Positions 691-3,990 of a stretch of DNA of 35,709 nucleotides are shown one piece after another. This DNA comes from a virus. The number at the start of each line of letters is the position of its first letter. Position 1 is the stretch's first letter. The stretch spans positions 1 through 35,709 of the IMG/VR virus record IMGVR_UViG_3300020438_000122, one strand, 5' to 3'. A model generated the notes under the pieces. The model searched no databases and was not told the origin of the DNA. It was given only the letters and a program-made list of their open reading frames with translations. Both the position numbers and the translations under genes were made by a program.

Positions 691-729
691 AAAGCTTTAC
701 AACTATCTTTAATTTTACGAAAAAAAAGC

Positions 730-758
730 TTGACTCTGAGGCGTTTTCTGTCATAATT
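730..758 (+). promoter_or_regulatory. Early-class promoter driving the noncoding unit
   Basis: -35 TTGACT 730-735 preceded by AAAAAAGC, 17-nt spacer, -10 ATAATT 753-758 (or CATAAT 752-757). Start expected near 762-765. Bases 709-735 are identical to 2869-2895, the upstream part of the promoter of the gene at 2925. No ORF follows. Confidence 0.75.
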
Positions 759-759
759 G

Positions 760-1137
760 TATTTAGTTCTTTTGATAGTTTAGATCGTTATGCCCTCTTA
801 GTTTACACTAGGTGAAAACAACGACTTACAGCAGTATACTAGTTAAGCCTGCGAGCGATTGATCATCGTTTTGAGTCGGAGAGGTGAGTTCGAATCTCAC
901 AGGGGGCATCATTTTCCTGTAGATGCATTGCGAAGAATGGCAGATGTAAGTCCGTATAAGGCATTCGTAAGACCATCCAATGCATCGAACAACGAGGCGT
1001 ATGAATCCACGCCTACAACCCGACGGGGAGAGAGGAAAAGGGACATAACACAATTTTGAGAGGCAGCACTACGCCTAGTAGGATGACCCTTGAAAGCTTT
1101 ACCAAGTGTGGCGACTTGGCTCTCAATTCACTTTTTT
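760..1137 (+). ncRNA. Structured noncoding RNA unit of about 375 nt
   Basis: This 550-base interval (632-1184) has its own promoter but no credible ORF. The RNA would contain a tRNA-like domain (792-908), then a perfect 9-bp stem GATGCATTG 922-930 with CAATGCATC 978-986, a 6-bp hairpin AGGCGT 995-1000 with ACGCCT 1009-1014, and a closed junction: TTGAGAG 1056-1062 pairs with CTCTCAA 1120-1126 and encloses CTAC/GTAG (1069-1072/1078-1081) and CCAAGT/ACTTGG (1102-1107/1114-1119). T6 at 1132-1137 could be the terminator tract. Large ornate phage RNAs such as GOLLD and ROOL are also found with tRNAs; I cannot assign this one to either, and it is shorter. Confidence 0.55.
792..908 (+). tRNA. tRNA-like element with enlarged anticodon region
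   Basis: Acceptor GCCCTCT 792-798 pairs with AGGGGGC 901-907 (one G-U), followed by A73. D-stem GTTT 801-804 pairs with AAAC 816-819 around a loop containing GG. The T-arm is perfect: GTGAG 884-888, TTCGAAT, CTCAC 896-900. Between the D- and T-arms are 64 nt instead of about 22. The only 5-bp/7-nt anticodon-like hairpin is AGCGA 854-858, TTGATCA, TCGTT 866-870, which would read GAT (Ile), but it leaves about 33 extra bases (821-853) and a 13-nt variable region. No CCA is encoded. It could be a decayed tRNA, a tRNA with an insertion, or a tRNA mimic. Confidence 0.4.
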
Positions 1138-1148
1138 AAAATTAACCC

Positions 1149-1177
1149 TTGACAAAACCTTAAAATTACTTTAGTAT
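1149..1177 (+). promoter_or_regulatory. Early leaderless-class promoter for gene 1185
   Basis: -35 TTGACA 1149-1154, 17-nt spacer, -10 TAGTAT 1172-1177, then 7 nt to ATG 1185. Confidence 0.85.
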
Positions 1178-1184
1178 TATATAC

Positions 1185-1409
1185 ATGATTAAGAAAAGAT
1201 ATGAAGTTATACAAAACGGAACGCTTTACCCTTACAACTCATTCGAGAAGAATCGAGATGGTTTGGCTCAAGCGTATGAACAAGCAGACCAAGTCCTTAC
1301 GGACAATCCTGAACTTGATTCTTTAGAGATTCAGTTCGCAACTTATGACGCAAGAGATGTTTTGATTGCTTGCGAGCTTGTGGACGATTTGATCAATTAC
1401 ACTAACTAA
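1185..1409 (+). CDS. Small protein of unknown function
   Basis: 74 residues, MIKKRYEVIQNG..., acidic in the second half, no recognisable domain. The ATG lies at the expected transcription start, so the mRNA is probably leaderless. It is followed after 12 nt by the next gene. Confidence 0.75.
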   Translation: MIKKRYEVIQNGTLYPYNSFEKNRDGLAQAYEQADQVLTDNPELDSLEIQFATYDARDVLIACELVDDLINYTN

Positions 1410-3904: not shown

Positions 3905-3990
3905 TTCCGTAAGTCTCTGATGATCAGGGGCTTGCGGATGCGGGGGCCGCAGTTGTAACATGTTGACTGTTAGTTAGTTGCGCGCCAAGA
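3905..3990. repeat. Dispersed palindromic repeat, copy 3
   Basis: First arm AAGTCTCTGA 3911-3920, loop TGA, TCAGGGGCTT 3924-3933: ten pairs including two G-U. The CTGA/TCAG closing pairs replace TTGA/TCAA of other copies, a compensatory change. Core TGCGG 3933-3937, 9-nt G-rich loop, CCGCA 3947-3951. The second arm is diverged. Lies 60 nt after gene 3606-3842. Confidence 0.8.

Follow-up and report, generated by a model that had tools for sequence, protein, structure and literature searches.

A Widespread Family of Phage RNAs in Which a tRNA-Like Domain Is Fused to a Conserved Junction Module

Introduction

The RNA described here combines a tRNA domain, which has lost the anticodon loop and the encoded CCA, with a junction module joined to it by a few nucleotides, and this arrangement is strongly supported by comparison with related sequences. 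It lies in the small-gene region near the left end of the window, that is, the whole stretch of DNA analysed, one virus record of 35,709 bases whose genes (terminase, PhoH, ERCC4-type nuclease and a GP88 fragment) are of the tailed phage type. Judging from these comparisons, the RNA is a member of a family that is widespread in phages and absent from Rfam 15. On balance we lean towards reading it as an untranslated RNA of about 370 nt, in which a non-decoding tRNA is fused to the junction and which associates with itself by kissing loops to form a stable particle or scaffold. Stable phage RNAs of unknown purpose, such as the T4 stable RNAs, GOLLD and ROOL, exist, and the new family is compact and very widespread. 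It also accounts for some phage tRNAs that have been annotated with unknown type or missed altogether.

A preliminary description of the same DNA had proposed a structured phage RNA that is preceded by a promoter, has no ORF and includes a tRNA-like domain, and this proposal holds, with the stems kept in homologs. It gave the junction module only piecemeal and missed the stems P1, P4 and P0, the palindromic loops and the boxA-like element. The features of the locus are collected in Table 1.

Table 1. Features of the RNA locus, with positions in the window
Feature	Position	Strand	Details or basis
Sigma-70-type promoter	730-757	+	TTGACT 730-735, 16-nt spacer, CATAAT 752-757 with TG; repeated block, kept in relatives L082 and L086
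boxA-like antitermination element AGTTCTTT, predicted RNA 5' end	765-772	+	GTTCTTT enrichment in relatives
P0, 5' strand GUUAU, abuts acceptor stem	787-791	+	Pairs with 1045-1049
tRNA-like domain	792-908	+	Rfam tRNA 38 bits; covarying stems, elbow nucleotides kept in 44 relatives
Parts of the tRNA-like domain	Acceptor 792-798/901-907; D-stem 801-804/816-819; T-arm 884-900; N73 = A908	+	
Remnant anticodon stem	822-825/875-878	+	Within tRNA-like domain
Insert hairpin H1, loop 835-848, palindrome ACUAGU 838-843	831-852	+	Palindrome varies, stays self-complementary
Insert hairpin H2, 7-nt loop UUGAUCA 859-865, palindrome UGAUCA 860-865	854-870	+	Palindromic loops in relatives
Junction module	912-1039	+	Covariance model R1 54.3 bits; covarying pairs
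Module stems	P1 912-918/1033-1039; P2 922-930/978-986; P3 995-1000/1009-1014; P4 1019-1021/1025-1027	+	
Module linkers GUA, GAACAACG, ACAA, GAGAG	Within 912-1039	+	Near-invariant
Insertion in place of usual P2 tetraloop	931-977	+	Near-identical in L109, L122, L137
P0, 3' strand AUAAC, after P1	1045-1049	+	Pairs with 787-791
3' structured element	1058-1124	+	Outer stem GAGAG 1058-1062/CUCUC 1120-1124; inner hairpin 1102-1107/1114-1119
T6 run, possible 3' end	1132-1137	+	Sequence

Promoter, boxA-Like Element and Coding Potential

The early-class promoter that had been proposed is present: it matches the consensus at 10 of 12 positions and is kept in relatives, and the 27-nt block at 709-735, which ends in the -35, is repeated exactly at 2869-2895 ahead of another gene. 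Promoter-like matches are frequent in the window (45 found against 22 expected). In addition, three similar GC-rich elements lie upstream of promoters in the window; those at 2461-2510 and 3931-3975 have the form CTTGCG..GCGGGGGC..TAAC.TGTTG, that at 640-690 is a looser version, and versions occur in relatives too.

Directly after the -10 comes a boxA-like element. GTTCTTT is the core of rRNA-type boxA antitermination sites, and among 56 distinct contexts this heptamer precedes the tRNA in 27, mostly 135-170 nt before P1, against about 3 expected. The boxA-like site is moderately supported; it would suit an untranslated transcript. The locus is presumably transcribed, and its own promoter together with the 5' boxA-like site would give a phage RNA of about 370 nt that is not translated. 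A credible ORF is indeed absent, the only candidate being a 66-aa ORF that starts with TTG; moreover, the junction module of L082 has a length difference of 52 nt, which is not divisible by 3 and so argues against an ORF, and in the homologs the stems are kept and any ORF is lost. As for the proposed T6 terminus, the run itself was located, but the terminator scan makes no call there.

The tRNA-Like Domain

The acceptor, D-arm and T-arm, which had been described as intact, are all present at 792-907 and correspond to those of the tRNA cloverleaf (RF00005). A targeted cmscan gave 38.0 bits over 792-908 (cut-off 29) and left 47 nt unmodelled in the anticodon region, while a default Rfam scan of the whole window and ARAGORN did not call a tRNA at 792-908. 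The stretch from D-arm to T-arm is 64 nt long and does not contain a 7-nt anticodon loop with U33.

Among 44 distinct relatives, the acceptor and T stems covary, and the elbow nucleotides are kept, namely U8 in 38, A14 in 36, the D-loop GG in 40 and the T-loop TTC in 42, although the tRNA finder awarded a bonus for U8, A9 and GG in placing the acceptor, so those counts are slightly favoured. Encoded CCA is absent in 43 of the 44 and could still be added after transcription; N73 is mostly followed by GC, whose C opens P1. The distance from the tRNA fold to P1 is 2 nt in 41/44 relatives and 3 nt in the window. The tRNA part is 97-160 nt long in 42 of the 44 because a longer insert replaces the anticodon arm. 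One exception is the L136/L138/L170 group, which has a tRNA-Phe (GAA)-like loop and a tRNA that looks intact; the other normal-length tRNA in the 44 is L104, the boundaries of which were placed differently by two scripts. In L254, too, the tRNA (Cys GCA) looks intact, so the loss of the anticodon is not universal.

The Junction Module and Its Surroundings

When the relatives were compared, the stretch behind the tRNA proved to be the most conserved part, rather than the tRNA itself. About 75 viral contigs have this part in common, with P1 around the hairpins P2, P3 and P4. A terminase search yielded relatives, five of which carry the RNA, and when two conserved strings were combined into a search pattern, it was located in about 70 viral contigs. 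A MAFFT sequence alignment misplaced the stems, and the matches were therefore collected by iterated covariance searches that started from a small seed: model R1, seeded from four sequences with the window excluded, gave 84 matches overall including the window (54.3 bits, E 8e-11). The window RNA has the architecture of the junction-module family (R1, R2), in which P1 encloses P2-P4 and the linkers are GUA, GAACAACGA, ACAA and GAGAG.

In the R1 alignment, which was fitted to the model and leans toward the structure, 96.6% of cells are paired and 16 of the 21 pairs are changed on both sides, including covariation at all eight P1 pairs. The number of double-changed cells (200) was reached by none of 500 shuffles, and the signal was lost when the partner strand was slid. 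Fitting alone is excluded by the varied pair types, for example CG, UA, AU and GC at P1 pair 4-172. Covariation in homologs, which the preliminary description had named as a check, is therefore present, and the perfect 9-bp stem and the 6-bp hairpin that it had listed (922-930/978-986 and 995-1000/1009-1014) are both exact. Support for P3, which is nearly invariant, and for P4, which shows little variation, comes from conservation and not from covariation. Stems P1-P3 are strongly supported by this comparison and P4 moderately. A single sequence would not settle the matter, because its folding energy (-100.2 kcal/mol, z -1.05) is no better than that of shuffles, 14 of 100 being as good, which is not significant.

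The pairing P0 between leader and trailer is moderately supported: a UUAU leader goes with an AUAA trailer in 8 of 9 cases, and a UUGU leader with ACAA in 19/23 and with AUAA in 3/23. With the tRNA acceptor and P1 only 2-3 nt apart, P0 would produce a compact P0/acceptor/P1 three-way junction.

The closed junction that had been noted just before T6 exists at 1058-1124. The inner hairpin of this 3' element covaries when compared by eye (CCAAGU/ACUUGG, CCACGG/CCGUGG and UUGCG/CGCAA in relatives), the alignment being too poor for pair counts. In some relatives, P0 is followed by additional structured elements, namely the window-type 3' junction, a second type (GUUAGCGGAAGUA...) and a third type (CAGUCUCGUGUCAGAC...), and these downstream modules occur in varying order, often linked by ACAAUUUU. 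Three types of conserved structured modules were also observed near the RNA in L107, L183, L124, L130, L151 and L082. The 47-nt P2 insertion is near-identical in L109, L122 and L137 despite their differing tRNA inserts, and its being common to RNAs with different tRNA parts suggests module exchange. The locus thus looks modular and recombining.

Palindromic Loops in the Insert

In 42 of the 44 relatives a longer insert stands in place of the anticodon arm, and in the window this insert contains the hairpins H1 and H2. In relatives, the H1 palindrome is UCUAGA, CCUAGG or ACAUGU, with self-complementarity retained, and the H2 stems vary with pairing kept. A loop of 6-7 nt with a 6-nt palindrome on a stem of at least 4 pairs was found in 22 of 44 relatives, so half of them do not have one by this strict test; shuffles gave 2.0 +/- 1.3 such loops, with a maximum of 6 in 1000 trials, and preserve composition but not relatedness, UGAUCA being common to 13 of the 22 loops. 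Eight palindromes occur in these loops, namely UGAUCA, UAGCUA, UGUACA, UCGCGA, GACGUC, UCUAGA, UGGCCA and AACGUU. Counted over all hairpin loops, 65 palindromes were found against 28.5 expected. In the core-hairpin subfamilies there was no clear palindrome excess (18/70 against 8.9), and several of those loops are T-loops.

The palindromic loops are strongly supported by this comparison. Since self-complementarity persists while the letters change, as a homotypic kissing loop predicts, copies of the RNA may well associate with each other through kissing loops. In GOLLD and ROOL, the molecules are joined by intermolecular kissing loops, which in GOLLD are self-interacting (PMC12286853).

Distribution in Phages and Prophages

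With a stricter core, ACGAGGCGUC-NNN-ACACGCCUA, at least 120 stretches were found in the viral scan, and they fall into several subfamilies. In some, a tRNA stands 2 nt before a P1 of different sequence, as judged by reading (P1 strands CACAGUAG/CUACUGUG in Pseudomonas phage D6, CUUAUCGG/CCGAUAAG in L270 and CUUGUAAG/CUUACAAG in L284); in others there is a long 5' domain instead. The core is present in Pseudomonas phages D6 and Psa21, Erwinia phages ChrisDB and SNUABM_9, Stenotrophomonas phage Jojan60 and Tetrasphaera phage TJE1, and also in 26 Arthrobacter records and in phages of Rhodococcus, Microbacterium, Aeromonas, Hafnia, Acinetobacter and Vibrio and lambdoid phages of E. coli. R1 scores for TJE1, Arthrobacter phage Kumotta and SNUABM_9 are only 17-18 bits. 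Most occurrences in named phages are unannotated and some coincide with annotated hypothetical proteins that are probably spurious ORFs; in phage D6 the tRNA domain is annotated as tRNA-OTHER.

A related RNA lies between the antiterminator Q and the holin in E. coli prophages. In two E. coli sequences (L249:97-905 and L353:2218-3026) an 809-nt unannotated gap from antiterminator Q to a lambda-type holin holds a structured RNA, and DNA similar to the IME10-type sequence was found in 674 of 5426 complete E. coli genomes, in 115 of them over at least 80% of the query; in the example read, it occupies such a gap. Members are therefore accessible to experiment in laboratory strains, since cultured phages carry them without annotation, as do E. 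coli prophages, where they lie between Q and the lysis genes.

Several matches were set aside. The one in Arthrobacter phage Waltz is inside an HTH gene and probably due to chance, and core-pattern matches in coding genes and in Thaumarchaeota 23S rRNA were judged to be chance because a 20-base pattern with this range of gaps should match at random about 12 times; the motif GAACAACGAGG...CGCCUACAACC in thaumarchaeal 23S rRNA (L173, L175, L176 and others) was judged likewise. A distant blastn search of window 700-1200 against phages gave only chance matches.

Two further observations concern neighbouring RNAs. In Stenotrophomonas virus Jojan60, an 83-nt tmRNA match (L251:680-762, 61.8 bits) directly adjoins the core hairpin and has no room for a tag reading frame; a similar case is the tmRNA without a CDS that was reported for phage DS6A (PMC11915505). 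On L258:10694-13660, GOLLD (180 bits), a tRNA array and a window-type RNA are adjacent on one contig.

The distant subfamilies may share one function with the window RNA. It seems to us an evenly balanced question whether all of these constitute one superfamily of phage RNAs that had not been recorded before, with members in marine, jumbo, actinobacterial and lambdoid phages and the core hairpin in common, and in many of which the tRNA anticodon arm has become a kissing-loop dimerisation arm, that is, the assembly joint of an RNA particle.

Possible Functions

In the reading favoured here, RNA polymerase would transcribe the non-decoding tRNA fold and then the conserved four-stem junction. The loops of the replaced anticodon arm would expose 6-nt self-complementary sequences, by which two or more copies could join through kissing loops into a dimer or larger assembly displaying several tRNA elbows and the near-invariant P3 hairpin. 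Such a stable RNA particle or scaffold might engage host tRNA- or ribosome-binding factors. An unlikely alternative that still carries some weight is that the RNA is a decoy or sponge, in which the tRNA elbow, lacking an anticodon loop that could be used, would sequester host tRNA-acting factors. RNase P or Z, anticodon-cutting defence nucleases, modification enzymes and ribosome sites are proposed targets, and self-pairing, if real, would merely stabilise the RNA. The elbow nucleotides are retained while the anticodon arm and CCA are lost, and the RNA lies among tRNA genes in several phages, both of which agree with a decoy; yet the near-invariant P3 hairpin and the linkers are left unexplained by it and are found also in subfamilies without recognisable tRNA, e.g., the E. 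coli Q-holin form. Less likely again is a processing device, in which cleavage at the tRNA by RNase P and RNase Z frees the junction module as the functional RNA; the tRNA would then serve solely as a signal for cleavage, with an anticodon arm that drifted once it no longer had to decode. A 5' end just before P1 would be defined, in distant families, by the fixed 2-nt spacing, and the intact tRNA in L136 and L254 points the same way, but P0 joins leader to trailer across the tRNA and the module, which argues for an intact product, and the inserts retain structure and palindromes instead of drifting.

The remaining explanations have very little in their favour. A tRNA gene with a removable anticodon-loop insert, maturing to a tRNA that can decode and followed by an unrelated RNA, would agree with the canonical remainder of the tRNA but is highly improbable: the ends of the insert give no consistent loop, U33 is missing in many relatives, CCA is absent in 43/44, and the inserts fall short of group I intron size and have no intron match in Rfam. 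To about the same small degree we credit a control of the following gene (1185-1409) by the RNA as its 5' leader or riboswitch; the RNA does lie upstream of that gene, but a separate promoter-like site at 1149-1177 precedes it, the downstream sequence differs among relatives and some members are within tRNA clusters. The idea of an attP remnant or a decayed, functionless tRNA, which draws on the resemblance of T-arm and acceptor to the 3' part of a tRNA gene, can practically be dismissed, as the 5' strand of the acceptor and the D-arm are present, covariation of the stems extends over dozens of phages and no other viral contig contains the exact 28-nt 3' tRNA sequence. What purpose tRNA-associated phage RNAs serve, and whether the tRNA fold has taken on a new use as a joint in RNA assembly, can now be tested.

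Comparison with Known RNAs

When Rfam 15 was searched at gathering and relaxed thresholds, tRNA alone reached the cut-off in the RNA region; up to E 10 over 600-1250, a sub-threshold FMN match was the only other one, and there was no GOLLD, ROOL or tmRNA match. Among the relatives, Rfam gave only tRNA, tmRNA, GOLLD and sub-threshold matches. Rfam 15 and the open-access papers searched contain no description of the family.

The window RNA shares the acceptor, D- and T-arms and elbow nucleotides with tRNA (RF00005), but it has neither a 7-nt anticodon loop nor an encoded CCA and is fused to P1 and P0. tmRNA (RF00023) is likewise a larger RNA that includes a tRNA-like domain with no anticodon; in contrast to it, the window RNA has a full D-stem and an acceptor that closes only 116 nt (792-907), and neither a tag ORF nor tmRNA pseudoknots were identified in it. 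A permuted group I intron or permuted tmRNA was rejected, as acceptor, D-arm and T-arm are colinear. The T4 RNAs rnaC and rnaD are stable phage RNAs in a tRNA cluster, and rnaC ends with a T-arm-like segment, but no relation to them was found, that region having no core hairpin and no model match.

The preliminary description had pointed to RNAs such as GOLLD and ROOL. This comparison stands as to kind, but not as to identity, since Rfam gives no GOLLD or ROOL match and the window RNA is far smaller. To our knowledge, no tRNA domain is known in ROOL. Its architecture differs from that of the window RNA. ROOL is a multimer with kissing loops, a phage or prophage RNA found near tRNA islands (PMC12286853). 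GOLLD (RF02032) is a homo-oligomer with intermolecular, partly self-interacting kissing loops and sometimes has tRNAs in its linker (PMC12286853). It is often longer than 800 nt, against about 370 nt here, and its tRNA is in a linker, whereas that of the window RNA lacks the anticodon loop and is fused 2-3 nt before the junction; the homo-oligomer is known for GOLLD, and palindromic loops alone for the window RNA. Both, however, are encoded by phages, untranslated and located beside tRNA genes.
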